From a virus: DNA of 41,581 nt. A program made the position numbers and the translations under genes. The first letter of the stretch is position 1, and every line of letters begins with the position of its first letter. Of the stretch, positions 2,970 to 40,492 are shown in pieces. The notes below the pieces were generated by a model that saw nothing but the letters and a program-made list of their open reading frames with translations, searched no databases and was not told the origin of the DNA. The stretch spans positions 1 to 41,581 of IMG/VR virus record IMGVR_UViG_3300042541_002216. One strand, given 5' to 3'.

Positions 2970-3176
2970 TTATAATTTTGATTTTACATGTTCAAAACTC
3001 TGAATGAACTTTTCATTTTCATCATTCAAAGTAACTATTATCTTACTGTTACCATCATAATCCCATCGAACTACAAACTCTCTCAGTTTTACAGCACCAC
3101 TTTTAGGTCCATCACTACACTCTGCTTCAGTGTAATTAGGTAGATTAAATTCATTACTCTTCTCCATCTTCTTCAT
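2970..3176 (-). CDS. Small hypothetical protein
   Basis: The 68-residue acidic/basic protein has no membrane segment. It contains KLREFVVRWDYDGNSKIIVTLNDENEK with alternating hydrophobic residues, suggesting a small beta-rich fold. It lies between the AAA+ gene and a small membrane protein gene, overlapping the latter by 23 bases. Function unknown. Confidence 0.5.
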   Translation of the reverse strand: MKKMEKSNEFNLPNYTEAECSDGPKSGAVKLREFVVRWDYDGNSKIIVTLNDENEKFIQSFEHVKSKL

Positions 3177-3354
3177 CTTTAAGTTCTTTTATTTTTAAGT
3201 GTGCACCCAATGCACCAGAAGCTAAACCAGAGGCACAAACCCATGCAATTGTAGCATCAATGTTTTCATTCTTGTAAGCAAAATATGTATTACCTAAACT
3301 AGAAAACATTGCTAACCCATACATAATAATTGAAACCTTGTTACTAATTTTCAT
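3154..3354 (-). CDS. Small two-helix membrane protein
   Basis: Read from MKISNKVS, this is 66 residues with two hydrophobic segments (about 7-26 and 34-51) and a charged KELKDEEDGEE tail. A longer reading beginning 33 bases upstream is possible, but it would overlap the upstream gene. The chosen ATG lies one base after that gene's TAA, as is usual in this window. It belongs to a block of small membrane proteins next to the membrane-anchored AAA+ ATPase and may be its partner; that link is inference. Confidence 0.55.
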   Translation of the reverse strand: MKISNKVSIIMYGLAMFSSLGNTYFAYKNENIDATIAWVCASGLASGALGAHLKIKELKDEEDGEE

Positions 3355-3355
3355 T

Positions 3356-3553
3356 TTAATCAAATTTATATATATAAACAGTATCAACGGTCTTTCCGTC
3401 TGTTACCAATTTTATTTGTGGTTTTATAGGTTTAGATACCTCAAACTCATCATCAATAAACACATAGTCAATCAATGAATACAACCCTACCATAAGCAAT
3501 AATCCAAATGATACTAACCCTATAACCAAAGCTGTGAATAATCCATCCATCAT
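3356..3553 (-). CDS. Small single-pass membrane protein
   Basis: The 65-residue protein has one long N-terminal hydrophobic helix (about 5-30) followed by an acidic segment and a beta-like KLVTDGKTVDTVYIYKFD tail. Its ATG overlaps the stop of the upstream gene by four bases. Function unknown; it is part of the membrane-protein block upstream of the AAA+ gene. Confidence 0.55.
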   Translation of the reverse strand: MMDGLFTALVIGLVSFGLLLMVGLYSLIDYVFIDDEFEVSKPIKPQIKLVTDGKTVDTVYIYKFD

Positions 3554-3900
3554 TTCTTATTAAAATATTTATCGACTCTTACCATAACAACACCATAAAT
3601 TGTTGCTAAACCTAAAGCACCCAATACCCACCATGGATTACTAGTTAATGCACCTATGATTGCTGGAATCACTATGATTGTTATTAATGTTGATATAACC
3701 ATAATGTTGAATGGTTTCTTATCCGTTCTCTCAATCCATACAAGGCGTTCTAACGCATCTTCCATGTCTTTGCCATACGCTGGCATTTCATGTTTTGTTC
3801 CATCTAATTCTAAGATGGTGAATTGGTACTTGAAATAACCTGGTGATGTTTTGCTCTCACCAATCAACCTACCTTCAATTGCTTTTCTTCTTTGTTTCAT
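3550..3900 (-). CDS. Two-pass membrane protein with soluble N-terminal domain
   Basis: The 116 residues divide into a polar N-terminal half of about 55 residues with beta-like alternation (YFKYQFTILELDGTKHEMPAYGKD) and two adjacent transmembrane helices (about 63-84 and 88-107), ending in a Lys-rich tail. No known family was recognised. The start overlaps the stop of the upstream 90-residue gene by one base, so they are co-expressed. Confidence 0.6.
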   Translation of the reverse strand: MKQRRKAIEGRLIGESKTSPGYFKYQFTILELDGTKHEMPAYGKDMEDALERLVWIERTDKKPFNIMVISTLITIIVIPAIIGALTSNPWWVLGALGLATIYGVVMVRVDKYFNKK

Positions 3901-5493: not shown

Positions 5494-5820
5494 TTAAATA
5501 ACTTTTTTTACAATTACAACAATTTTCCCTATTTTATGGTTAGATATCTTATTGAATGATTCTTTGCTTAAATCAATATGTTTAAGACCACATCCATTTC
5601 TATCAGTTATTACTACCGTATCTATTAAACCATTTGTAATGTTTTTAACAACCAATCTAGTTCCTCTCTCATAATGGTTGAATGCAGCCGTGGAATACTC
5701 TCTACGGACTTTTCTGTGAGGTGTAGTGTCATACCATGTGGCTGTGCACTTATGCTCTTTTGTTTCTGATATTAATGATGTTAAAAACACCAACATTAAT
5801 AATGCTATTATTCTCTTCAT
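5494..5820 (-). CDS. Secreted RlpA-like double-psi beta-barrel protein
   Basis: An N-terminal signal peptide (Lys-Arg, then hydrophobic ALLMLVFLTSLI to about residue 17) precedes a compact domain reading ATWYD..., AAFNHYERGTRLVVKN (about 45-60), VITDRNGCG and IDLSKESFNKI. This is the RlpA-like double-psi beta-barrel pattern (usually A.WYG, AAHRTLPFGT..V.N, V.INDRGP, IDLS..A). RlpA proteins bind and can cleave peptidoglycan lacking stem peptides, in the periplasm. The usual G after WY is D, and the catalytic status is uncertain. In a phage it could act in lysis or envelope remodelling. TATATTTG lies five bases upstream of the start. Confidence 0.75.
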   Translation of the reverse strand: MKRIIALLMLVFLTSLISETKEHKCTATWYDTTPHRKVRREYSTAAFNHYERGTRLVVKNITNGLIDTVVITDRNGCGLKHIDLSKESFNKISNHKIGKIVVIVKKVI

Positions 5821-5858
5821 ATTACAAATATACTATAAATATTTAAAAAATAAAATGT

Positions 5859-6779
5859 TTACCAACCATTTTTCATATACTTATCAGATATCTCGATTAT
5901 CTTTTCAGAATACCAATCCTCATATCGTTGTCTAATATAGTTCTTACTATAAGTTTCCTCATATTTAAAATGATTTAACATCTTCTCTTCAGTTAATCTA
6001 CCATGACCAACCCATGTAACTAACCAATTGGTTGAACCCATCGTAACAATCAATTCATTGAAAAACGGTAATAACTTATCATTCAATATGTTAATGTGAT
6101 ACCAATCTTTTAATAGTTTAACAATTTGATATCTGTATGTTTCAGTTTCAGCTTCAATATCATATTTGAATTTTTCAATTAATTCATCAATCTTAATATC
6201 TTTATCAATATTAGTCAAATATTTATCAATTTCGTTGAGAATGAATTCATCGTATCTTATATCAAATGTCTTATTTATATCGTAATTAAACTCGTCAATA
6301 TCACCATCGAAATGTTTTTTAATTTCTTCAACCAACTTTTTACTTCCTTTGGTGTAATCTAATGTATCTAAGTAGTCTTGAACTTTAGTAATTAAATATT
6401 TATGTTTGTAATGCTCACCTATTTTAGTTCGTAAAAACGGTTTATTATAATCACTACCAAACTTACTAAAGGCTTCATTTAAAATTACACTAAACCCTTC
6501 TTTACCATCATATGACTCAATAAATTTGTTTAGTTCTTCACCAACAATCTTAGATTGTTCTATATACCAACGATATAATACATTGGTACTAGACTCACCA
6601 GTGTCGGTATCAAAATTACCAATTATTTTTTCAAATTCAAGCACCATATTATCACCGTATGTTGATTTATGTGGCAAAATTTTATTTGTCTCTAATTCAA
6701 CAAAAAGATAGTCACTTGAACCGATAGTTACTTTGTAACCATTATCTAGAAAATCATAAATAAACTTCTCATCTGTCAT
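5859..6779 (-). CDS. Hypothetical protein, Tyr- and Asp-rich
   Basis: The 306-residue protein is largely helical by pattern, with repeated DID/DKYLTNIDKDIKIDEL segments in the middle. It has no membrane segment and no motif that I recognise. It follows RNase R by one base, so it is co-translated with it and could be a partner; there is no other evidence for function. Confidence 0.6.
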   Translation of the reverse strand: MTDEKFIYDFLDNGYKVTIGSSDYLFVELETNKILPHKSTYGDNMVLEFEKIIGNFDTDTGESSTNVLYRWYIEQSKIVGEELNKFIESYDGKEGFSVILNEAFSKFGSDYNKPFLRTKIGEHYKHKYLITKVQDYLDTLDYTKGSKKLVEEIKKHFDGDIDEFNYDINKTFDIRYDEFILNEIDKYLTNIDKDIKIDELIEKFKYDIEAETETYRYQIVKLLKDWYHINILNDKLLPFFNELIVTMGSTNWLVTWVGHGRLTEEKMLNHFKYEETYSKNYIRQRYEDWYSEKIIEISDKYMKNGW

Positions 6780-6780
6780 A

Positions 6781-8760
6781 TTACAACCTTAATAATGTTA
6801 AATTTATGTTTTTCTTTTCAATATCAACAGATTTCACAACAACCATAACTTCATCACCCAATCTAATGTAACTACCAGTATTGTAACCTTTAACTCTATA
6901 GTTCTCAACATCAGCAATATATGTATCACCACCAATATCTGTTAGTCGAATCAATCCATCACATCCGTTCTCTTCAATTGTAACAAATAACCCATAGTCA
7001 GTTACGCTAGTAACCATACCTTTGTATACTTTACCAATATTATCACTCATGTATACGCATTGCATATATTTGATACTATCTCTTTCAGCTTTTTGAGCTT
7101 TCTTCTCTCTTTCAGACAAGTGACCACACTTAGCATCCAACTTGTTAAGATTTGGTAAATTCTTAGGTTTACCATCCAAGTATAATGCTAATAATCTATG
7201 CACCATAACATCTGGATATCTACGGATAGGACTAGTAAAGTGAGAATAGTTCTTGAACCCTAACCCATAGTGACCGATGTTCTTGGTCATATAGTTGGCT
7301 TTCTGCATAGTTCTAACCACCAAATTGCTAATCATTTCCTCTTCAGCTGTACCTCTAACATCCAATAATAGTTTATTCAATGTTTTAGTCGTTTCCTCTG
7401 GTGTATCAATCTTGATGTCATAACCAAATTGACTGATAAATGTTTTTAATTGCTCTAATTTTTCTTCATTAGGTTTCTCATGTGCTCTGTTTACCATTGG
7501 ATACTGACGACTATTAACATATTGTGCAACGTGTCTGTTAGCCAATAACATGTATTCCTCAATAAGTTTGTTTGAATCCTTACCAACCTTGAATATAATA
7601 TCAACTGGTTTATTATTTTCATCCAATTTGAAACGTACTTCATGTTTATCAAAAGATATAGAACCTTTTTGTAAACGAGTCTTACGCATCTTCTTCGCAA
7701 TCTTATCAAGATTCAATATTGCTTTACCTAATTCATTAACCAAAACTTTATCCTCAACACTACCTAAACCAGATAAATGATTATCTATCTCTATAGGGAA
7801 ATCAGTTTTTTTAGCAGATTCAATAATGTGTTGTGCTTCTTCATATGTAAACCTATGGTCAGAATTGATTACAGTTCTACCAAACCATTCATCCAATACA
7901 TGACCATTGTGGTCGATTTTAAACACCACTGAGAAGCAAAGCTTATCTTCGTGTGGTCTTAGTGAACAAAGTCCGTTAGATAAGTTCTCTGGAAGCATAG
8001 GGACACATCTATCAACAAGGTAAACACTAGTCCCTCTACCATAAGCTTCTCTATCCAATTCTGTGTCTGGTCGTAAATAATGTGACACATCAGCAATATG
8101 AACACCAACAAACAATTCACCATCTACCCATTCAACAGATAACGCATCGTCAAAGTCTTTTGCATCATGTGGGTCAATTGTAAATGTAAGTACATCACGC
8201 ATGTCTCTACGTTCATCTATTTCTGATTGTGAAATTTCTGTTGATATCGCTGAAGCTTCAGCCAATACATCTTCTGGGAAATCATATGGTAACCCGTATT
8301 CTTCTAAGATACTATGAATTTCAGTTTCATGTTCACCAGCATATCCAATAACTCTAACTATCTTACCGTTAGGGTTCTTAGCATCCTCTTTCCAATCAGT
8401 TAGTTTAGCAACAACCTTTTGGCCATCCAATGCTCCATTTATTTTATTCAATGGTATAAAGAAATCAACTGGTATTCTATTGCTATCTGGAACAAAGAAA
8501 GCATATTTTTCACTTAATTGAATGACACCAACAAATTCAGTTCTGAATCGTTCAACTATTTCAATCACCTCACCTTCAATGCTTCTACCATTACCATTGC
8601 CTTGAATAACACGTATCTTAACTGTGTCTAAATGCAAAGCTTTATTTGTATTGTTTTTACTTATGTAAATGTCTTTTGGTAAATCTTGGTTTACCAAGTA
8701 TGCAGTCCCACTGGTGGAAGATGAAATTTTACCTTCTAATATATCTCCTATCTTAATCAT
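6781..8760 (-). CDS. rnr: Ribonuclease R (RNB exoribonuclease with S1 domain)
   Basis: RNase R degrades RNA 3' to 5', including structured RNA. Read from MIKIGDILEG it has 659 residues: cold-shock-like OB domains (to about 150), an RNB domain with the metal-binding DPHDAKDFDDA (196-206) and VHIADVSHY, then a C-terminal S1 domain starting near GKVYKGMVTSV. Family members are usually 700-800 residues, so the N-terminal part is short. An in-frame ATG 18 bases upstream exists, but the chosen ATG lies one base after the previous stop. It could recycle host mRNA into nucleotides or clear stalled transcripts. Cellular-type RNase R is uncommon in phages. Confidence 0.93.
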   Translation of the reverse strand: MIKIGDILEGKISSSTSGTAYLVNQDLPKDIYISKNNTNKALHLDTVKIRVIQGNGNGRSIEGEVIEIVERFRTEFVGVIQLSEKYAFFVPDSNRIPVDFFIPLNKINGALDGQKVVAKLTDWKEDAKNPNGKIVRVIGYAGEHETEIHSILEEYGLPYDFPEDVLAEASAISTEISQSEIDERRDMRDVLTFTIDPHDAKDFDDALSVEWVDGELFVGVHIADVSHYLRPDTELDREAYGRGTSVYLVDRCVPMLPENLSNGLCSLRPHEDKLCFSVVFKIDHNGHVLDEWFGRTVINSDHRFTYEEAQHIIESAKKTDFPIEIDNHLSGLGSVEDKVLVNELGKAILNLDKIAKKMRKTRLQKGSISFDKHEVRFKLDENNKPVDIIFKVGKDSNKLIEEYMLLANRHVAQYVNSRQYPMVNRAHEKPNEEKLEQLKTFISQFGYDIKIDTPEETTKTLNKLLLDVRGTAEEEMISNLVVRTMQKANYMTKNIGHYGLGFKNYSHFTSPIRRYPDVMVHRLLALYLDGKPKNLPNLNKLDAKCGHLSEREKKAQKAERDSIKYMQCVYMSDNIGKVYKGMVTSVTDYGLFVTIEENGCDGLIRLTDIGGDTYIADVENYRVKGYNTGSYIRLGDEVMVVVKSVDIEKKNINLTLLRL

Positions 8761-8761
8761 C

Positions 8762-9277
8762 TTATAATTCTCCCACAAACTGTTCTAAATATTGTTTGTA
8801 TGTTTGTTCATTTGTTATTTTACCAAACATTTTTTTTGTTGTTTCAACATATCTATCTCTATTTGGTTTTAAGTTTAATTGTTGGGTAGCTTCCCTATTG
8901 AAATGGTGACCAGTTAATCTTTTAAAGATATGACAAACATATCTATCAGCAACAATTTCTTCATCTATTATATGGTCTGAATAAGTTTTAAAATCATCAT
9001 TTGATAACATTTTTAGCATATTATCCACACCCATTCTTTTAATCCTTTTTGCATGTGCTGTTTCATGTAAGATAACATAAGCAATAAATCTGTTATTAAA
9101 TCTTTTCTTTAATTCATCAATGTCTATATAAACACAATATATGGTAGCTATACCTAAATAACCATTTAAATTTTTATCAACATATTCAAAACCACTATTT
9201 TCCATATATTGGATTATTGGTTCTAGATTGAAACCATCGTTATAGTTTCTTAATTTTTCTTTTATTGATTCATTCAT
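8762..9277 (-). CDS. Putative zinc metallopeptidase (HExxH)
   Basis: The 171-residue protein has a helix AYVILHETAHAKR with the zinc motif HETAH (71-75) and, about 30 residues later, DEEIVADRYVC, which offers the third ligand Glu as in gluzincins (ImmA/IrrE- or M48-like). No membrane helix is visible. ImmA-type peptidases cleave phage repressors and SprT-type ones act on DNA-protein crosslinks; neither can be assigned. A complete promoter lies upstream, and the gene precedes RNase R by one base. Confidence 0.7.
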   Translation of the reverse strand: MNESIKEKLRNYNDGFNLEPIIQYMENSGFEYVDKNLNGYLGIATIYCVYIDIDELKKRFNNRFIAYVILHETAHAKRIKRMGVDNMLKMLSNDDFKTYSDHIIDEEIVADRYVCHIFKRLTGHHFNREATQQLNLKPNRDRYVETTKKMFGKITNEQTYKQYLEQFVGEL

Positions 9278-9281
9278 ATTA

Positions 9282-9312
9282 CAAATATACCACTTTATTT
9301 AGTTAGTTTCAA
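9282..9312 (-). promoter_or_regulatory. Bacteroidota-type promoter of the peptidase-RNase R operon
   Basis: TTG, 20 bases, TATATTTG on the minus strand, about five bases upstream of the peptidase ATG. It lies just past the terminator hairpin at 9326-9346, so the two separate transcription units. Confidence 0.7.
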
Positions 9313-21098: not shown

Positions 21099-21356
21099 TT
21101 ACTTTCTCAAGAATTTATATTTAACAACTAACCCACTATGTACTTTATCTTTGTATGGTGAATCAAAGTACGTCTCAACATCATATAATATAACACCTTC
21201 AACATTATCATATCTAGGGTCGTTTAATAACATACCATTCTTACGGCTAATCCATTCTACCAATGTTTCTTCAACTTTAAGTGTTTCAGTTCTAATCGTG
21301 TAAACTGATGATGGAATTTTTAACGCATCTTCTAATTTTTCAAATACTACTTTCAT
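21099..21356 (-). CDS. Hypothetical protein
   Basis: Read from MKVVFEKLEDALKIP, 85 residues; a start 15 bases upstream would place the ATG inside the promoter region and is rejected. The sequence is mixed alpha/beta, with WISRKNGMLLNDPRYDNVEG and DVETYFDSPYKDKVHSGLVV. No family was recognised. It is first in a unit with dCMP deaminase. Confidence 0.55.
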   Translation of the reverse strand: MKVVFEKLEDALKIPSSVYTIRTETLKVEETLVEWISRKNGMLLNDPRYDNVEGVILYDVETYFDSPYKDKVHSGLVVKYKFLRK

Positions 21357-21360
21357 GTTA

Positions 21361-21391
21361 CAAATATACAATTATTTTTTTAAATAATCAA
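21361..21391 (-). promoter_or_regulatory. Bacteroidota-type promoter of the dCMP deaminase unit
   Basis: TTG, 20 bases, TATATTTG on the minus strand, five bases upstream of the ATG at 21356. Confidence 0.7.
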
Positions 21392-21442: not shown

Positions 21443-23029
21443 TTAAGCATGTTCAATTAATTTATTTATCTTTATCTTAGCTCTTTCTCTGATGTCTTCG
21501 AACGTATGGTCAACAAGGATTTCACCCATTCTAAACACTTCTACAAGCTCATCTTTAACATCGTTATAGTCAGCATCCATTGATGTTACTGTACGGTATG
21601 TACCATCGTCATTCTTAACCAATTTAAGCTTACCTTGTTTTGATTTCTTGAATGATTTTGTGATGTTACCATCAGCATCCATTTCTGTTGGTGACTTAAC
21701 AACATTTTTCTCTTCACCATCTAATATAGCATAAGATGCTTTGGTTGCAAAGTTATTTGTATCACGATTGATATCAGCTTGTAATAACTTACCACCCATA
21801 CCCAACGCTAAGTTCTCTGGAGATATTTTCTCTTCTTCTAAAAACGCATAGATTTCACCAATAGAATCCAAATTAACACCGTCACCTTGTATAACACGTA
21901 CTTGTGGTGGTAACACTTTATAACCGTTTTCATTTACTGTGTAACCAAATTTATCAAACAATATATTGAAAATTTCACGTAATGTGTTGATAACGTGACC
22001 AGAATCTGGTCTAATAACCAACTGATTACCTAGCTCTGCTGGACGAGATAATATAAGGTCACGTAATTCAGTGCCCCATTTTTCAGAACATGCTTTGAAA
22101 ATGTTGAATGAATCAGATACGCAAGCAACGATTCCAGTTGGGAAAAGAGTAAGTACTCGTTTCATCAATTCCAATTCACCTTCTTCACCTTTAAGTGTCA
22201 TGATTGAGTGTTCTGTTGCTGGAATGGATAAACCATAGATTGTTTCAGTATTATAAACATCTTTGATTAATTGAGATGCAACGATTGTATCAGAACCTCT
22301 AAAGTTAACTAAATGTGCTGACCCACCAATCTTAGCTGATTGTACAGATGATACACCTCTGAATCCGAAATCATTCAATACGAAGTCAACCAAGAAATCG
22401 ATTGTGGTCTCATCATATGTCGTACAGTTATGAAATGATTTGGTAACGATTTTACGAACTTCACGTGATAGCGTAGCCACAGTTATTGGATACCAAACTT
22501 GTAATAGAATTGACTCTAAGAAGTTTGTTAACCAAGCACAATTATCATCCAATGATTCAATTGTAAATAATACGTTTTTAGTTCCGATAACTGAACCCTC
22601 TGGAACTGCTTTGATACTGATAGGTAACTTACCATCGTATTTCTCAACGATATAATCGAATTTACTTCTATCGAATACATCATCACGACCAAACACACCA
22701 AGCTTAGTTCCAAGCAATTCATATGCTTCATCAACTTCTTCTTTGGTAATAGCAATACCTTCAAGATATTGTTTCAATACGATTTGAAGACCATAGAAAA
22801 CTGTCTCTGAAAACTTACCACCTCGTGATTCCAAATAAGAAATCATTTTGGTCATCTCAGCACCATAAAATTTGTGGTGAGAGAACTTGTAGGCATCAGT
22901 ACATAGAATAAGGTTATCTGGTTTTGTTAATACCTTTGTTAGATATTTTTGCATTTCTTCAATACTAGCCCAATCTTTAGTTGCAATTGCACGTTCTAGT
23001 TTTCTTGCTAAGTTTCTCTGTAAACTCAT
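21443..23029 (-). CDS. nadV: Nicotinamide phosphoribosyltransferase
   Basis: NadV (Nampt) joins nicotinamide and PRPP to give NMN. The 528 residues show CTDAYKFSHHKFYG (about 43-56), YLESRGGKF, DFGFRGVSSVQSAKIGGSAHLVNFRGSDT (about 223-251), the phosphate-binding RPDSGH (about 342), IQGDGVNLDS and GMGGKLLQADINRDTNNFATK. About 35 extra N-terminal residues form a charged helix not found in most homologues. It shares an operon with the SLOG gene and natV. In NARP1-type systems a related enzyme uses ADP-ribose pyrophosphate instead of PRPP; the adjacent NMN adenylyltransferase argues for NMN here. Confidence 0.92.
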   Translation of the reverse strand: MSLQRNLARKLERAIATKDWASIEEMQKYLTKVLTKPDNLILCTDAYKFSHHKFYGAEMTKMISYLESRGGKFSETVFYGLQIVLKQYLEGIAITKEEVDEAYELLGTKLGVFGRDDVFDRSKFDYIVEKYDGKLPISIKAVPEGSVIGTKNVLFTIESLDDNCAWLTNFLESILLQVWYPITVATLSREVRKIVTKSFHNCTTYDETTIDFLVDFVLNDFGFRGVSSVQSAKIGGSAHLVNFRGSDTIVASQLIKDVYNTETIYGLSIPATEHSIMTLKGEEGELELMKRVLTLFPTGIVACVSDSFNIFKACSEKWGTELRDLILSRPAELGNQLVIRPDSGHVINTLREIFNILFDKFGYTVNENGYKVLPPQVRVIQGDGVNLDSIGEIYAFLEEEKISPENLALGMGGKLLQADINRDTNNFATKASYAILDGEEKNVVKSPTEMDADGNITKSFKKSKQGKLKLVKNDDGTYRTVTSMDADYNDVKDELVEVFRMGEILVDHTFEDIRERAKIKINKLIEHA

Positions 23030-23378: not shown

Positions 23379-24340
23379 GCTATACTATTATCGTATTTAA
23401 CGTTAGCTTCTTCCAATATTTTATTTTTATCCATATAAACACATAAATTAGCGTACAAGTCTCTATGTTCAACCATAATATCTCTATCTACATTGATATC
23501 TTTAGGTTGAACCCAATGGAGACTTTCAATATCATCAGATGGTTCAATACGACCCCATAAGAATTTACCAATAAATAATGTGGTCATAATACCAGATTCT
23601 GTATTTGCATATCTCCAATCGTTTATAGCACCACTACAAACATATCTAACATCACCAATTTCAGCGTTACCACCAGTTTCTTCTCTAAACTCACGTTTTG
23701 CAGCTAACTCCCAATTCTCATCAGTTCTATCAACAAATCCACCTATGAATCGATAAAAATCCTCATTGGGTTTCTTAGCCAATAGAATCTGTCCTTTATC
23801 GTTATATACAGTGATATCTACTGTTGGGTATGTTACTGGTCTAGCAGCGTAGTTTGCGTGAATTACACCAGCTCTAAAGTCCTCAGAAGCTAATATTTCT
23901 TTGGATACTTGTTTCCGCATTTCAGTACCACTATAGATAATATCAGTTGTTAATTCAATCGTTGGGTATTTACCGTGGTAATAAGGTATGAATGATTCAC
24001 GACTACCATATAAAACAGCAGTTAAATCACCAAAAGGTGTTTTAATTTCAGTATCTAAGTTTTGTGACCATTTAATATCAGAACGATTATCTTTGTGTGG
24101 TAATACAATGATATTAGGATATTGCTCTTGTATCATTGCTTTTCTAGTGGCAAAATCCAATGGGTTTGATTTAGTATTACTCACAATAGGCACACCTAAA
24201 AAGATAATAACTTTCTTATGGTTAGAACAAACAGTATCAATAACCTTAATATGACCTTCATGTAATTTATGCACTTGAAAACGAGCCACTATAACCCCGA
24301 TTTGATATTGTGATGGGTCTAACTCTTGTTTAATTTCCAT
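23375..24340 (-). CDS. natV: Bifunctional NMN adenylyltransferase/Nudix hydrolase
   Basis: The 321 residues join two domains. The N-terminal nucleotidyltransferase (about 1-170) has VIVARFQVHKLHEGH (14-28), with the HxGH-like site, and YSGTEMRKQVS (about 131-141); it makes NAD+ from NMN and ATP. The C-terminal Nudix domain (about 185-310) has GGFVDRTDENWELAAKREFREETGG, one residue longer than the standard box before the first Glu. The same domain order is found in phage KVP40 NatV and the Slr0787 family, where the Nudix domain cleaves ADP-ribose. It is first in an operon with the SLOG and nadV genes, behind its own promoter. Confidence 0.92.
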   Translation of the reverse strand: MEIKQELDPSQYQIGVIVARFQVHKLHEGHIKVIDTVCSNHKKVIIFLGVPIVSNTKSNPLDFATRKAMIQEQYPNIIVLPHKDNRSDIKWSQNLDTEIKTPFGDLTAVLYGSRESFIPYYHGKYPTIELTTDIIYSGTEMRKQVSKEILASEDFRAGVIHANYAARPVTYPTVDITVYNDKGQILLAKKPNEDFYRFIGGFVDRTDENWELAAKREFREETGGNAEIGDVRYVCSGAINDWRYANTESGIMTTLFIGKFLWGRIEPSDDIESLHWVQPKDINVDRDIMVEHRDLYANLCVYMDKNKILEEANVKYDNSIA

Positions 24341-24359
24341 AATTTTTAATTTTATATTA

Positions 24360-24390
24360 CAAATATATACAAAAAATCCCAGTAATGCAA
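24360..24390 (-). promoter_or_regulatory. Bacteroidota-type promoter of the NAD+ salvage operon
   Basis: TTG, 20 bases, TATATTTG on the minus strand, about 19 bases before the natV ATG. The -33 TTG falls in the loop of the terminator hairpin at 24376-24401, so the promoter and the upstream terminator share bases. Confidence 0.7.
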
Positions 24391-30362: not shown

Positions 30363-30674
30363 CTAAGATTCTTTAGTGTTTGACTCTTCACTAACTATTT
30401 TTTCACTATCTTCGTTTTCAATAGCGTCAGTCGTGTTTAATAATAAATTTAATTGTTCAATTGATGCATTTACAAACCCTTCTTTTGAACCATACCCATT
30501 TTGTGAAGCAACATGAATCAATTCACATAAACCTTCACATATACATGCAATGTCAATAGCTATCATTTCTTTAGCCTCTTCTTCATTTTTTGGTACTTCG
30601 GAATCTTGTCCTTTCCCAATCAATACTGGTCTATCTCTATCAGTATCGATGTCAATAAAAATTGTGTTTTTCAT
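30363..30674 (-). CDS. Hypothetical acidic protein
   Basis: The 103-residue acidic protein begins MKNTIFIDIDTDRDRPVLIGKGQD, followed by a helical region (ACICEGLCELIHVASQNGYG) and an acidic tail (EDSEKIVSEESNTKES). Similar small proteins are frequent in phage genomes, but function is unknown. A complete promoter precedes it. Confidence 0.6.
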   Translation of the reverse strand: MKNTIFIDIDTDRDRPVLIGKGQDSEVPKNEEEAKEMIAIDIACICEGLCELIHVASQNGYGSKEGFVNASIEQLNLLLNTTDAIENEDSEKIVSEESNTKES

Positions 30675-30688
30675 ATATTTATTTTTTA

Positions 30689-30719
30689 CAAATATACTAC
30701 TAATTATCTAATGATGCAA
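30689..30719 (-). promoter_or_regulatory. Bacteroidota-type promoter
   Basis: TTG, 20 bases, TATATTTG on the minus strand, about 15 bases upstream of the 103-residue gene. Confidence 0.7.
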
Positions 30720-30776
30720 GTACTTACGTAAAAATAAAAGATTAGGTATATAAGAATACTAAAAACAATAAGAAAA

Positions 30777-30805
30777 AATAAAGGAGCCATTTAGACTCCT
30801 TTATT
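30777..30805 (-). terminator. Intrinsic terminator of the structured RNA
   Basis: AATAAAGGAG and CTCCTTTATT form a perfect 10-bp stem with a 9-base loop, followed on the minus strand by TTTTTTCTT. It closes the RNA that begins near 31062. Confidence 0.85.
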
Positions 30806-31062
30806 GATATGGTATCGCTTACCATCTCGTGACTGATATCATTACATCACTTTGTATTTCTACAGCGATTTTTTGAGCAGATATTCAGAATTTAACTGAA
30901 ATCTCAAGCTTGGAAAGCTAGTATAATAAACATTTATACGATATCTGCATATTTCGAAGAAAGACAGTCACGGCCACCTCTAGGTTCTTTCTTCTATTGT
31001 TAATCATGGCAAAATGTGGCTCGACCCGAATTAACACATATTTTATTTTCTTACTTTAAATT
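30777..31062 (-). ncRNA. Novel structured non-coding RNA, about 285 nt
   Basis: No coding frame fills this interval. Perfect complementary segments abound on the minus strand: an 8-bp long-range CGTGACTG/CAGTCACG (30965-30972 with 30828-30835); GAAGAAAGA/TCTTTCTTC (30986-30994 with 30956-30964), whose loop includes one arm of the former and so makes a pseudoknot-like arrangement; GCAGATAT/ATATCTGC (30941-30948 with 30877-30884) enclosing three small hairpins; ATGGTA/TACCAT; and TGTTAAT/ATTAACA (31030-31036 with 30998-31004) near the 5' end. A TATATTTG promoter lies upstream and a terminator closes it. I see no tmRNA, RNase P, 6S or group I intron signature. Confidence 0.8.
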
Positions 31063-31069
31063 TATATTA

Positions 31070-31100
31070 CAAATATACTACTTAATCTTAAATAATCAAG
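31070..31100 (-). promoter_or_regulatory. Promoter of the structured RNA
   Basis: CTTG, then a 19-base spacer after TTG, then TATATTTG. It is the first TAnnTTTG upstream of the RNA and lies past the stop of the UVR gene. Transcription would start near 31060-31064. Confidence 0.75.
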
Positions 31101-31111
31101 TATTTTTGTAA

Positions 31112-31498
31112 TTATTTTTTATTTCTTTTCTCATTAGCAATCAAATCACGTAATATTGCAGCTTTTTCAAAATTTTCATCTACCACAGCATCATATAATT
31201 GTTCTTCTAGTGGTTTCTCTTCAAATGGTGGTATATTCAATGTTGGTTCATCAGATACTATTATTTTAACTATATCACCATGTTTTGTGTGCCAAGTTCT
31301 TTTCTCAAAGAAGAATATCCCTTCATTATAGAATTCAATTTTATCTGGTTTACCTAATTTATCTATATGTTCTTCCAATTTAATTGGGTCTGTTAACATA
31401 TCTTCAATGTCTGTTTTAGGTTTTCTTTTTCTTTTTACGGGTTGTTTATTATTCTTATTAAAGAATTCACCATAAAGCTCATCAAATGTTTTACCCAT
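31112..31498 (-). CDS. UVR-motif protein
   Basis: Read from MGKTFDELYGEFF, 128 residues; a TTG start 39 bases upstream is possible but less likely. The N-terminal part is basic (KQPVKRKRKPKTD), the middle has FYNEGIFFFEKRTWHTKHGDIVKIIV, and the C-terminus has PLEEQLYDAVVDENFEKAAILRDLIANE, a UVR motif as in UvrB/UvrC and in McsA/ClpC-type adaptors. The motif serves protein-protein contact. The partner is unknown, although a UvrB-like or Clp-like host protein is likely. Confidence 0.65.
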   Translation of the reverse strand: MGKTFDELYGEFFNKNNKQPVKRKRKPKTDIEDMLTDPIKLEEHIDKLGKPDKIEFYNEGIFFFEKRTWHTKHGDIVKIIVSDEPTLNIPPFEEKPLEEQLYDAVVDENFEKAAILRDLIANEKRNKK

Positions 31499-31514
31499 AT
31501 TACTAATTTTATGT

Positions 31515-31610
31515 CTATAAATATCTTCTAAATGCAAATATACGCCTTTTCTTTAAATAATTCAAATCATGGTCATTGGTATAAGCTTCTCTCTCAAATG
31601 ATATGTTCAT
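31515..31610 (-). pseudogene. Displaced C-terminal fragment of the HExxH peptidase gene
   Basis: A 31-codon frame ending in TAG reads FEREAYTNDHDLNYLKKRR and ends FRRYL. It matches the last third of the peptidase at 32472-32789 (FEREAYANDHDLTYLKKRK...FLRY) at most residues, including the Glu expected as the third zinc ligand. The nucleotide sequences have diverged clearly. The HNH gene lies between the two. Either a homing event replaced the peptidase's 3' end and pushed the old end aside, or it is a short paralogue. Its own promoter means it could be translated. Confidence 0.6.
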
Positions 31611-31621
31611 AATTTATAATA

Positions 31622-31652
31622 CAAATATACTCTTTATTTTTTAATTTACAAA
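31622..31652 (-). promoter_or_regulatory. Promoter before the displaced fragment and UVR gene
   Basis: TTTG, 19 bases, TATATTTG on the minus strand, about 12 bases before the fragment's ATG. Confidence 0.7.
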
Positions 31653-31721
31653 CTTTTATCAAAAACAATTTATAAATACTGTTACTTTTTGTAAAAACAT
31701 TATATTTATAGTAAAAACGAT

Positions 31722-32483
31722 ATGAATATAACTAAAACTTGTACTAAGTGTAATATTGAAAAATCACTATCTGAATTTAATAACGGTAAGAGTTATAAAG
31801 ATGGAAAAACACCATCTTGTAAACTTTGTATAAAAGAATCGAAACGACTATATTATTTAAAAAATAAAACAAAAATTAAAACATCAGTTAAAAAATACAC
31901 TGAAGGTAATAAAGATAAAATAAAAATTATAAAAGCAGAATATTATAACAATAATAAACTTAAAATTAACGAAAAAAATAAAACCTATAGGGAAAAAAAT
32001 AAAGATAATATATATAAAAATAGAGCTATATGGTATCAAAACAATAAAGAAAAAGCAAAAGAACTATCAAAACAATGGTTAAACAATAATAAAGATAAAC
32101 AAAGAATGATTAAACAAAAATATGTAAAAAAAAGAAAAGAAATAGACCCATTATTTAAACTAACCGAAAACGTTAGGTGTATGATATCTAATTCTTTATC
32201 TAAGCAAAACTACACTAAAAAATCTAGAACATATGAAATACTTGGTTGTTCATTTGATGAATTTAAGTCTTATTTAGAATCTAAATTTGAATCATGGATG
32301 AATTGGGAAAACCGTGGTTTATATAACGGTACCAATAATTATGGTTGGGATATTGACCATATAATACCGTTATCAAGTGCTACTACAGAAGAAGAATTAC
32401 TTAAATTAAATCATTTCAGTAATCTTCAACCATTATGTAGTTATATTAATCGAGTAATTAAAAAAAATAACCTAATACCTTAA
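31722..32483 (+). CDS. HNH homing endonuclease
   Basis: The 253-residue plus-strand protein has an N-terminal zinc finger CTKCNIEKSLSEFNN...CKLC (about 6-37), a very Lys/Asn-rich helical linker with repeats of the KNKxK(I/E)K type (about 40-145), and a C-terminal HNH domain: WDIDHIIPLSSA (about 209-220) and NHFSNLQPLCSYINR (about 230-244). It is of the kind that phages carry as selfish genes. Its 3' end overlaps the end of the peptidase gene by 12 bases, and a second copy of that gene's tail lies on its other side. Confidence 0.88.
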   Translation: MNITKTCTKCNIEKSLSEFNNGKSYKDGKTPSCKLCIKESKRLYYLKNKTKIKTSVKKYTEGNKDKIKIIKAEYYNNNKLKINEKNKTYREKNKDNIYKNRAIWYQNNKEKAKELSKQWLNNNKDKQRMIKQKYVKKRKEIDPLFKLTENVRCMISNSLSKQNYTKKSRTYEILGCSFDEFKSYLESKFESWMNWENRGLYNGTNNYGWDIDHIIPLSSATTEEELLKLNHFSNLQPLCSYINRVIKKNNLIP

Positions 32484-32789
32484 AAAAGAAAAAAATTTTC
32501 TTTTTTTAAGATATGTTAAATCATGGTCATTTGCATATGCCTCACGCTCAAATTTATTATCCCAGTATCCTTTGGTGTATAACTCAATCAAATACCATAC
32601 ATAAAAAGGTATTATCAACATCTCAATTTGTTGTCTTAAATGAATCCTTTCATGGTTTATCAATTCATCATCGATTATTGTTTTAGATGATATGAATATA
32701 AATGGCCAGAACGCTAACCCTCTTATACCATCACTACCACCAAAAAACAACCCAAAGAATTTTAACGCTCTATCGCTTACTATTATCAT
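32472..32789 (-). CDS. Putative HExxH metallopeptidase
   Basis: The 105 residues hold NHERIHLRQQ (about 45-54), a zinc motif HExxH with Arg and Ile between, and FEREAYANDHD (about 80-90), whose first or second Glu could be the third ligand. A hydrophobic segment IEMLIIPFYVWYLIEL (about 55-70) suggests membrane association. The family resembles short Bacteroidota proteins of unknown function. Its C-terminus exists in a second, diverged copy at 31515-31610. Confidence 0.6.
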   Translation of the reverse strand: MIIVSDRALKFFGLFFGGSDGIRGLAFWPFIFISSKTIIDDELINHERIHLRQQIEMLIIPFYVWYLIELYTKGYWDNKFEREAYANDHDLTYLKKRKFFSFLRY

Positions 32790-32981
32790 TATGATTATTA
32801 TTTTATATTGATGAACATTTTATTCTTTCTCCATTTTAAAACCATCCACTTATGTTATACAAAATAAGTTTAAAAACAAACATCAAAAAAAGAATATTAA
32901 TTAATTTTAAGTTTAAGTTGGGGCTGAAAGTTTAACCCTCCAGACTACCACCACTTTGTTTTACTAAACAAAGAAAAATTG
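32790..32981. other. Non-coding stretch behind the tRNAs
   Basis: No reading frame of note was found in this interval. It holds a perfect 8-bp hairpin CTTTGTTT/AAACAAAG (32954-32961 with 32966-32973) just 3' of the second tRNA, and a weaker GGGTT/AGCCC helix around 32930. Neither has a T run on the right side to be a clear terminator for the tRNA unit. Confidence 0.5.
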
Positions 32982-33105
32982 CCGAGGAGATTGGACTCGA
33001 ACCAATAAATAACAGTTCCCAAACGTAGATTTATGCTGAACATAATCTTATACAGATTAACTTTTTTTTACATACTGCCGCCTTTACCAATTTGGCCACT
33101 CCCCG
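32982..33105 (-). tRNA. tRNA with a 50-base insertion in the anticodon loop, probably Pro(UGG)
   Basis: A complete cloverleaf is present: 7-bp acceptor CGGGGAG/CTCCTCG (one G-U), D-arm GCC...GGC with TTGGTAA, T-arm ATTGG-TTCGAGT-CCAAT, and anticodon stem GCAGT/ACTGT (33074-33078 with 33012-33016). The bases between the anticodon stem strands number 57 instead of 7. Nearest the 3' strand, TTTGGGA (33017-33023) is the normal loop of tRNA-Pro(UGG); C1-G72 and a 5-base variable loop fit Pro. Without the 50 extra bases the tRNA is 74 nt. ATGTAAA at the other end would give Tyr(GUA), but the short variable loop argues against it. No CCA is encoded; the discriminator is G, unusual for Pro. Confidence 0.65.
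33024..33073 (-). other. 50-base insertion inside the tRNA anticodon loop
   Basis: The inserted bases separate the 5' strand of the anticodon stem from the TTTGGGA loop. They begin with ATGT and eight A, and contain a hairpin GATTATG/CATAAATC with a TTCAG loop and a smaller TAATC/GATTA alternative. It is far too short for a group I intron and has no visible bulge-helix-bulge. The exact ends shift by one or two bases because of repeats at the borders. Confidence 0.55.
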
Positions 33106-33133
33106 AATTTCTAGTCTTTCCTAACGTCAACAG

Positions 33134-33207
33134 TGGGTCAGCATGGGCTCGAACCATGGACTTCAACATTATGAGTGTTGCACTCTAACCAACTGAGTTA
33201 CAGACCC
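33134..33207 (-). tRNA. tRNA-Met (CAT anticodon), elongator type
   Basis: The 74-nt cloverleaf has acceptor GGGTCTG/CTGACCC with one U-U mismatch at pair 6-67, D-arm ACTC-AGTTGGTTA-GAGT, anticodon arm CAACA-CTCATAA-TGTTG, and T-arm CATGG-TTCGAGC-CCATG. The anticodon is CAT. A normal G1-C72 pair rules out initiator tRNA; tRNA-Ile2 (CAU, lysidine) remains possible, but loop and stem fit elongator Met. The discriminator is A; CCA is not encoded. Confidence 0.88.
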
Positions 33208-33247
33208 TTAGTGCTTTCCAATATATCAATGAACTTTATTTATATCA

Positions 33248-33279
33248 CAAATATACTATTAATTTTTTAATCTTGCAAG
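33248..33279 (-). promoter_or_regulatory. Promoter of the tRNA unit
   Basis: CTTG with 20 bases to TATATTTG on the minus strand, about 40 bases upstream of tRNA-Met. Confidence 0.7.
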
Positions 33280-33327
33280 TACTTTTGTTTTTTTTTATTA
33301 TAATCTAAATATTTATCTAAAAAAGCC

Positions 33328-33654
33328 ATGGATAAAATATTTAAAAAATACCCAAAAAATTATTCTTCATTTAGAAGAAAATGGGCTAACCTTTATAGAC
33401 CCATGAAAAAACCTAATTTTTTACAACCAACTGTTATTATTATGTTTGTTTTATTTATATTAAGTTTCATTGGTTTTATGTTAGATGTGCCATACCACAC
33501 AACACCATTTATTGGTGGATTTTTATTTGTTCTTGTTTCGATATACTATTTCAGATTGTTCCCACTTACATGGGATGAGATGTATGAATACGAAAAAAAA
33601 TATTATAGAGAACTTTGGGGATTTCCAACAGATTGGAACCCTCAATCTAAATAA
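33328..33654 (+). CDS. Two-pass membrane protein
   Basis: The 108-residue plus-strand protein has a basic, aromatic N-terminus, two hydrophobic helices (about 37-53 and 61-80: VIIMFVLFILSFIGFML and IGGFLFVLVSIYYF), and an aromatic/acidic C-terminus (WDEMYEYEKKYYRELWGFPTDWNP). Its start lies next to the tRNA promoter in divergent orientation. The last 13 bases overlap the next minus-strand gene. No family was recognised. Confidence 0.6.
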   Translation: MDKIFKKYPKNYSSFRRKWANLYRPMKKPNFLQPTVIIMFVLFILSFIGFMLDVPYHTTPFIGGFLFVLVSIYYFRLFPLTWDEMYEYEKKYYRELWGFPTDWNPQSK

Positions 33655-34565: not shown

Positions 34566-34892
34566 ATGGGTATAGTTTATCTACTGCTGAGTGTTGATAT
34601 TATGGGTAATGAAGTATATAAAGTAGGTGTTACAAAAAACACCACTAGTAAACGTATATCACAACTTTCAACTGGTAATTCAGATAAAATTCAACTCCTT
34701 AAACAATATGAATCAGAAAACTATAAAAAAGTAGAAAAGATGATGCATGTTAAATACGCACCTTATAAGACTGAGGCCAACAATGAATGGTTTTCTTTGA
34801 AAGCTGAGTATGTATTATCATTCTTAGAGGATTGTAGGAAAGCTGACGAAAACATCAGCTTTCTAATTGAAAACAATCCATTTTATAAATGA
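34566..34892 (+). CDS. GIY-YIG-superfamily protein (T5orf172/MUG113-like)
   Basis: The 108-residue plus-strand protein begins GIVYLLLSVD...YKVGVTKNTTSKRISQLSTGNSDKIQLLKQYES (about 2-50) with the GIVYL strand, the YKVGVTK helix start and the R..QLSTGN signature. EKMMHVKYAPYKTEANNEWFSL follows. This is the T5orf172/MUG113 branch of GIY-YIG-type nucleases. Such small genes are often mobile in phages. It stops one base from the convergent MORN gene. Confidence 0.75.
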   Translation: MGIVYLLLSVDIMGNEVYKVGVTKNTTSKRISQLSTGNSDKIQLLKQYESENYKKVEKMMHVKYAPYKTEANNEWFSLKAEYVLSFLEDCRKADENISFLIENNPFYK

Positions 34893-35383: not shown

Positions 35384-36565
35384 TTATAAATTATAGAATT
35401 CTTTTCTTATTTTAATCAAAAGATTGTTAACTAATTCTGGGTCAATACTCTTAGGTAAATCAGACTCTTCGAATATTTTATCCATCTCTTTTATTTCGGC
35501 TTCAGCGGTTTCAATAAGTGTTTCTAAATCAACTTCACCACGTCTAATCGCTAACAATTCATTGGCATCTTTTCTGCGAACTTGTATACCTTCACCTCTA
35601 CCAATCTCTTTTGACATCCTAATAAGTCTCATACAATGCATCATATTTTTTGAATCCACAGTTTGACCTTCTTTAGTTGTTTGCACATACCTATCCTCGT
35701 TTCTGTTGGTTAACCATTCTTTGTATTCTTTGTAATCCTTACAATGTGTTGAATAACCATCTTTATTATAACTAATTATTGCTATTGGTGTTTCACCTTT
35801 TGGAATGCTAGATAGTCGTAATTGATTAGATTCAGCAACATTTTCGCCCTCATCTTTTTTAACCAACCCTTTATACCCAAATCCTAAATGTAGGTTTGAT
35901 TCACACCTTAAATATTTTGTATATTCTCTAAAGTCTTCTCGTATAGAATCACTGAAACAGCTATTGGCAATCTTATCAAAATAAACAGCATATAAATCTC
36001 TAGCATTTGGTATGTTTGCAACACCACAAAACTTTTCATCATAACCCATAGGTTTATTCCATACCTTCCATGAAATAGATTTATCACCTTCAATAACATA
36101 AACAAAATCTAACACATCTTTACGAGTCATTTTCTTCACCTCCCAATTCTGTTTTTTATTAAGTCCTTTGGCTTTTTGTATTTGTTGTAAAGCATACCCA
36201 GAGAATGAATTTTTAGCTGATTTAGAAATTAAATTAGCTCTATTTTCTATTAGGATATCAAATAAAGGGTTTTTGTATTTAATACAGTCTTCTGGTGTGT
36301 TTAACAACTCTAAGATATTAGGGTTATTTGACCCAACCAAGGTTAGAAAACGACCTAACTCATAATAAGTGGTATCATTTGTTTTATCAGATATTTGTTC
36401 TGGGTATCTACTATTTAATATGTCATCTAATTCAGCAATATAAACTCCACGTATGTCAATATCGGAAGTTGGTGTGTTTGTGCCATAAGCAACAGAACCA
36501 CTAATAGATTCAAAAAGGATTAACCCTTTTTCTTTTATATATTCTAATGTATATTTATTCTCCAT
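35384..36565 (-). CDS. RlaP-like nucleotidyltransferase
   Basis: The 393-residue protein has SISGSVAYGTNTPTSDIDIRGVY (19-41), the active site of the DNA-polymerase-beta-type nucleotidyltransferases (GS followed by DxD at 34 and 36), in the form of the RlaP family. Later segments hold MTRKDVLDFVYVIEGDKS and MMHCMRLIRMSKEIGRG, also typical. RlaP proteins occur with RNA ligases and are thought to add nucleotides to RNA ends before ligation. The two RNA ligases lie 3-5 kb away on the same strand. Confidence 0.8.
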   Translation of the reverse strand: MENKYTLEYIKEKGLILFESISGSVAYGTNTPTSDIDIRGVYIAELDDILNSRYPEQISDKTNDTTYYELGRFLTLVGSNNPNILELLNTPEDCIKYKNPLFDILIENRANLISKSAKNSFSGYALQQIQKAKGLNKKQNWEVKKMTRKDVLDFVYVIEGDKSISWKVWNKPMGYDEKFCGVANIPNARDLYAVYFDKIANSCFSDSIREDFREYTKYLRCESNLHLGFGYKGLVKKDEGENVAESNQLRLSSIPKGETPIAIISYNKDGYSTHCKDYKEYKEWLTNRNEDRYVQTTKEGQTVDSKNMMHCMRLIRMSKEIGRGEGIQVRRKDANELLAIRRGEVDLETLIETAEAEIKEMDKIFEESDLPKSIDPELVNNLLIKIRKEFYNL

Positions 36566-40438: not shown

Positions 40439-40460
40439 AATATATTAATTTTAAGTTTTA

Positions 40461-40492
40461 CAAATATACTAATTTAATTTTAAATAAACAAA
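40461..40492 (-). promoter_or_regulatory. Bacteroidota-type promoter of the Rnl2-like ligase
   Basis: TTTG, 20 bases, TATATTTG on the minus strand, about 22 bases before the ligase ATG. Confidence 0.75.

Follow-up and report, generated by a model that had tools for sequence, protein, structure and literature searches.

The minus-strand transcription unit and its tRNA

The window, that is, the entire stretch of viral DNA analyzed here (41,581 nucleotides), contains at positions 30777-31062 a locus that, judging from its sequence, is a real phage transcription unit on the minus strand, with genes for a tRNA-Gly(UCC) and for a small structured RNA not described before. Transcription of this unit of ~286 nt is predicted to run from ~31062 to 30777. 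Bacteroidota promoters have the form TTTG-N~19-TAnnTTTG, and we take the TTG-N19-TATATTTG element read at 31099-31070 on the minus strand (TTG at 31099-31097, a 19-nt gap, and TATATTTG at 31077-31070) to fit this known form; a sigma-70 scan also reported a site at 31099-31072 on the same strand. The promoter-like stretch was found again at seven other sites in the window (33233-33288, 40445-40491, 31611-31645, 24320-24367, 21320-21391, 9272-9298, and 5816-5860), one of them right before a tRNA-Met gene, and these recurring stretches likely make up a phage regulon. At the opposite end of the unit, an intrinsic terminator (30805-30777, minus strand) consists of a 12-bp stem followed by the T run TTTTTTCTT; two terminator-like sites were found, against 0.7 expected in shuffled sequences. 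No open reading frame of at least 60 amino acids covers the interval, and the minus strand of the complete 286 nt folds at -67.3 kcal/mol (z = -3.0, with none of 200 dinucleotide shuffles as good). For the plus strand, the z-score against dinucleotide shuffles was -3.3; this reading was rejected because the promoter, the terminator, and the G.U bias of the stems all indicate the minus strand.

The preliminary description had presented the interval as a gene-free stretch of about 285 bases holding one unrecognized, strongly structured RNA that has a promoter and a terminator of its own. The lack of genes, both signals, and the strong structure were confirmed, and a new RNA family is indeed included, but the unit would give two products, an RNA of ~91 nt and tRNA-Gly(UCC), and only the first of these is unrecognized. 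An Rfam search of 30600-33400 yielded no match at E ≤ 10 over 31039-30949, in agreement with the earlier statement that tmRNA, RNase P, 6S, SRP, and group I signatures are missing, whereas 73 nt of the interval matched the tRNA family RF00005 (51.8 bits, E = 1.4e-9, cut-off 29).

This putative tRNA-Gly (30948-30876, minus strand; anticodon UCC) starts 0 nt after the new RNA. ARAGORN does not call a tRNA at this position of the window; the assignment as tRNA-Gly(UCC) draws support from five related contigs (L012, L018, L025, L028, and L041), in which ARAGORN predicts a tRNA-Gly(TCC) at the corresponding place. The T loop reads TTAAATT and the D loop AAATGTTT, compared with TTCGATT and AATGGTTT in the relatives, and the gene has lost the conserved elbow bases G19 and C56 that the relatives keep. 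The two changes may be paired, with U19 and A56 replacing the original elbow contact. Given the off-consensus loops and the rejection by ARAGORN, it is uncertain whether 30948-30876 works as a tRNA, and the window copy, with its own promoter and degenerate tRNA-Gly, may represent a decaying array.

Fold and covariation of the new RNA family

The protein encoded at 30363-30674, used as bait, led to the first contig with a homolog, L009, and to L010, a contig without the RNA; the other neighbor protein (31112-31537) found no relatives. The L009 copy (429-517) is 85% identical to the window RNA over 91 nt (E = 6e-23) and lies within an array of nine tRNAs. Through pattern scans of IMG/VR, one with both loops fixed and a later one with the kissing positions left free, the homologs came to 60 viral contigs besides the window, together with which they comprise 36 distinct sequences. 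All 60 contigs were confirmed by a covariance model (50-99 bits), as were all but two of the 54 stretches returned by the last scan; as the first of those stretches served to build the model, the scores are partly a product of construction, and the conserved pairing is the independent evidence. The window copy scores 93-97 bits as part of the model's own alignment, yet it served as the query that found the others. Three contigs (L262, L264, and L213) matched the pattern and not the model and were not counted as members.

The 91-nt family core (31039-30949, minus strand), located directly 5' of the tRNA-Gly, contains two hairpins. Hairpin P1 (31036-30998; arms 31036-31025 and 31009-30998) shows double-sided changes in all eight outer pairs, with 92.7% of alignment cells paired; hairpin P2 (30994-30956; arms 30994-30986 and 30964-30956) shows them in all seven pairs (93.6% of cells paired) and contains an inner 2-bp stem, 30981-30980 with 30967-30966, that is invariant. 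For both hairpins together, 94.6% of cells are paired and 16 of the 19 pairs carry double-sided changes, the stem sequences varying freely across the family while pairing is kept. The covariation score was 0.70, compared with 0.20 (sd 0.016) in shuffles, none of 500 reaching that value, and at most 0.14 when the alignment was slid. With 35 G.U pairs against two A.C mismatches in the stems, the minus strand of the window is identified as the RNA strand.

The two loops are complementary to each other. The loop 1 strand CG(A)GCCAC (31023-31016), with a bulged A at 31021, pairs with GTGGCCG in loop 2 (30977-30971), yielding a kissing helix of 7 bp with one bulged base; in family numbering, C17 G18 (W19) G20 C21 C22 A23 C24 face G63 U64 G65 G66 C67 C68 G69, the bulged W19 being A or U. 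All seven pairs form in 36 of the 36 distinct sequences, and four of the seven show double-sided changes. Seven loop types occur, all complementary (CGGCCAC/GUGGCCG, CGGCCAG/CUGGCCG, CGGCCAU/AUGGCCG, CGGCCGC/GCGGCCG, CGGCCGU/ACGGCCG, CGGCUAC/GUAGCCG, and CGACCAC/GUGGUCG), and on a tree built without the kissing columns they are explained by 10 parsimony changes, each double-sided. The loop-loop pseudoknot is thus supported by direct covariation, and the crossing arrangement proposed in the preliminary description proved to be real. The window copy forms all seven kissing pairs, so that it shares the features that define the family: P1, P2, and the 7-bp helix with its bulged W.

Coding sequence, a DNA-level palindrome, or chance pairing could be invoked instead, given that palindromic binding sites could account for the two hairpins and that the advantage of the 91-nt core over its shuffles, when it is folded by itself, is only modest (z = -1.2). 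Loop-loop covariation, the G.U bias, indels of 1-2 nt, and the absence of an ORF all speak against this, and covariation refutes it for practical purposes, leaving it a negligible probability. The covariation test among the collected homologs, which the first description had proposed as a check, was decisive in favor of a structured RNA family. Because base changes in other phage contigs preserve the folding, the new RNA is, on this comparative evidence, a real and previously undescribed family of phage RNA that is absent from Rfam; in the part of the literature covered, no description of it was found.

Covariation cannot separate intramolecular from intermolecular pairing, and the loops could instead pair between molecules, giving dimers or larger closed assemblies as in GOLLD and ROOL. 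These phage RNAs, often found near tRNA islands, multimerize via conserved kissing loops into large RNA-only assemblies, and ribosome binding has been reported for GOLLD (PMC12286853). We consider self-assembly of the new RNA unlikely. A coarse rigid-body closure test found intramolecular kissing geometrically feasible; the kissing helix is then placed across the two stem tips, although several linkers are almost fully stretched. The spacing of the kissing strands varies by only a few nucleotides among the members, as a length-matched intramolecular contact requires.

In the window, a hairpin-forming tail of 70 nt (30875-30806, minus strand) follows the tRNA-Gly. It folds slightly better than its shuffles (z = -1.9, 9 of 200 as good) and is window-specific, being without counterpart in the relatives: it is unaligned in L009 and L010 and different in L012, L018, and L025. 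Two 8-bp long-range pairs had been proposed earlier, CGTGACTG with CAGTCACG across ~130 nt and TATCGCTT with AAGCGATA across ~60 nt; since both lie in or reach into this tail, they are left unsupported, and the former would compete with the conserved kissing helix. Pairing of the tail with loop 2 was considered and rejected: a match of 8 nt would arise by chance several percent of the time, by our own estimate, and this one is not conserved.

Phage tRNA islands and distribution of the family

Among 59 tabulated copies of the new RNA, 51 have a tRNA on the same strand at a distance of at most 10 nt, and 56 have one at most 100 nt away; the window tRNA-Gly detected by Rfam is included in these counts. 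The RNA often exactly abuts the co-oriented tRNAs, with few or no spacer bases, and in the other phages it looks like any regular member of the array. Its left neighbors include tRNAs for Thr, Met, Asp, Ser, Arg, Ala, and Gly, and on the right, downstream side stands a tRNA for Gly, Thr, Met, or Ala, or none; because this downstream neighbor varies, the RNA is not tied to one tRNA. The arrays comprise up to more than 20 tRNAs and sometimes a tmRNA, and a single copy of the new RNA was found in each of four larger viral records searched whole.

The constant co-orientation and frequent exact abutment would also be expected of an element that acts in cis on the tRNA precursor, as a processing signal or a spacer, and has no independent life. 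This reading appears improbable, slightly more so than self-assembly, considering that an array of up to more than 20 tRNAs holds a single copy, that the neighbors vary on both sides, and that the strict loop sequence and the loop-loop covariation exceed the needs of a spacer.

Other RNAs were observed in islands of the same type. These include tmRNA genes (L217:11914-12299, Rfam 60.7 bits; ARAGORN predictions in L055 and L083) and the Rfam sRNA freshwater-1 (RF02979), which resembles the new RNA in its presence in such an array (L060:4340-4401) but is a separate 62-nt element elsewhere in that array and does not match it. An RNA-like element of ~130 nt (L012, ~8687-8816) is conserved among the arrays of L012, L018, and L025; it has tRNA-like ends (GGGGGTG...CCGCCCCCA) and a T-arm-like hairpin, and the L012 and L018 copies have no Rfam match. 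In L076, a contig with 56% GC, a group I intron (3158-3621, minus strand; 69 bits) is located downstream of the new RNA.

Outside these viral contigs, the RNA was found neither by the model, used with strict filters, nor by the pattern in 395 Bacteroidota genomes; the same pattern recovers it in a viral record known to carry it. With a loose pattern applied to bacterial genomes, none of the loci inspected among the matches listed showed the new RNA. Searches by blastn produced no homolog among 50,697 phage records (several members as queries) or 72,556 plasmids (one member), and no match was obtained in the LR745206, Lak-B4, Cellulophaga, Maribacter, Zuri, phiA8-29, DSS3_VP1, and XacN1 phages, in SCTP-2, MIJ3, KVP40, Felix O1, and T4, or in two large uncultured phages with NAMPT relatives. 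Two weak model matches of 17 bits each were taken as chance, the one in CcrColossus being antisense within a coding gene and the one in Atu_ph07 missing most of loop 1, both with no tRNA nearby. As far as tested, the new RNA belongs to phages, and all its known carriers are uncultured viruses.

The closest cultured relatives of one window protein are encoded by Maribacter and Cellulophaga phages, which suggests that the window phage probably infects Bacteroidota. One L076 protein is closest to those of Pseudomonas, Aeromonas, and other proteobacterial phages, so that the phages carrying the RNA probably infect hosts from more than one phylum.

Relation to known RNAs and possible role

That the RNA is a known class (tmRNA, RNase P, 6S, SRP, T4 rnaC/rnaD, GOLLD, ROOL, or a riboswitch) in strongly diverged form is very improbable: Rfam gave no match over the new RNA up to E = 10, either in the window or in twelve member loci. 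In favor of this reading, the tRNA cluster of T4 likewise ends with two stable RNAs of unknown function. Like the new RNA, rnaC and rnaD (species 1 and 2 RNA) are small and located within a phage tRNA cluster, but they are 139 and 119 nt long and stand at the cluster end, and an exhaustive model search of T4 70000-73500 gave a best score of 9.1 bits, outside rnaC/rnaD, which is background. Purine riboswitch aptamers consist of two parallel hairpins joined by loop-loop pairing; the analogy is one of fold only, as the new RNA has no enclosing stem, junction, or expression platform, resides in tRNA arrays, and is without an Rfam match. The phage tRNA-Gly(UCC), of which 30948-30876 is an example, is a neighbor of the new RNA and not the RNA itself.

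GOLLD and ROOL are, like the new RNA, structured RNAs of phages or prophages that lie near tRNA genes, have conserved kissing loops, and are of unknown function (PMC12286853). They are several hundred nucleotides long, however, whereas the new RNA has ~91 nt and two hairpins only, and neither covariance model matched it in the window or the twelve member loci. According to two studies (PMC10264068, PMC11555353), phage tRNAs evade host systems that attack tRNAs, and phage tRNA islands are increasingly regarded as counter-defense gear against tRNA-destroying hosts. By analogy, the new RNA may work like GOLLD and ROOL or like these defense-evading tRNAs while belonging to neither family.

The scheme we favor, with reasonable though limited confidence, is that of a stable trans-acting RNA cut from tRNA precursors that acts on translation or on tRNA-directed host factors. 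As the RNA abuts tRNAs in the arrays, the enzymes that process tRNAs would generate its ends, through RNase P at the tRNA that follows and 3' processing at the one that precedes, with a stable tRNA-sized RNA acting in trans as the presumed product. Covariation shows P1 and P2 to be neighboring hairpins with loops joined by the 7-bp kissing helix and its one bulged base; this helix would hold a rigid two-helix bundle that presents conserved unpaired bases to a partner, namely, U16 and RUUNUG of loop 1 and AG and UGA of loop 2. Because the RNA occurs only together with the tRNA and tmRNA sets of phages, its location suggests as the most likely partner either a component of the translation or tRNA apparatus or a tRNA-attacking host factor, in which case translation would be retuned or shielded during infection. 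More tentatively, we propose a class of small RNAs that large uncultured phages keep in their tRNA islands as they would a tRNA and that could serve in trans as a decoy or inhibitor of host translation or of tRNA-directed immunity, or else self-assemble through the kissing loops. A conserved non-tRNA RNA, present once per island where tested and kept through many rearrangements of its neighbors, implies that these islands carry more than tRNAs. Together, the covariance model and the compensatory loop pairs make up a ready set for testing structure and function, and they allow metatranscriptomes to be searched.

Several other features of the window were noted. A tRNA-like gene with the anticodon GUA (Tyr) at 33105-32982 (minus strand; Rfam 44.3 bits) has ~52 extra nucleotides in the anticodon loop and no Rfam match to a group I intron; either it contains a very small intron, or it is a gene in decay or an RNA of an unusual kind. 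The plus strand carries a gene for a T5orf172/MUG113 domain protein (34566-34892) and, opposite in strand to the two tRNA-bearing loci and located between them, a 253-aa ORF without assignment (31722-32483); the products are possible homing endonucleases splitting the array. The minus strand also encodes an RlaP family protein of an RNA-repair pathway (35384-36565, identified by Pfam) and, at 21443-23029, a protein that most resembles nicotinamide phosphoribosyltransferases of phages, both possible counter-defense genes.
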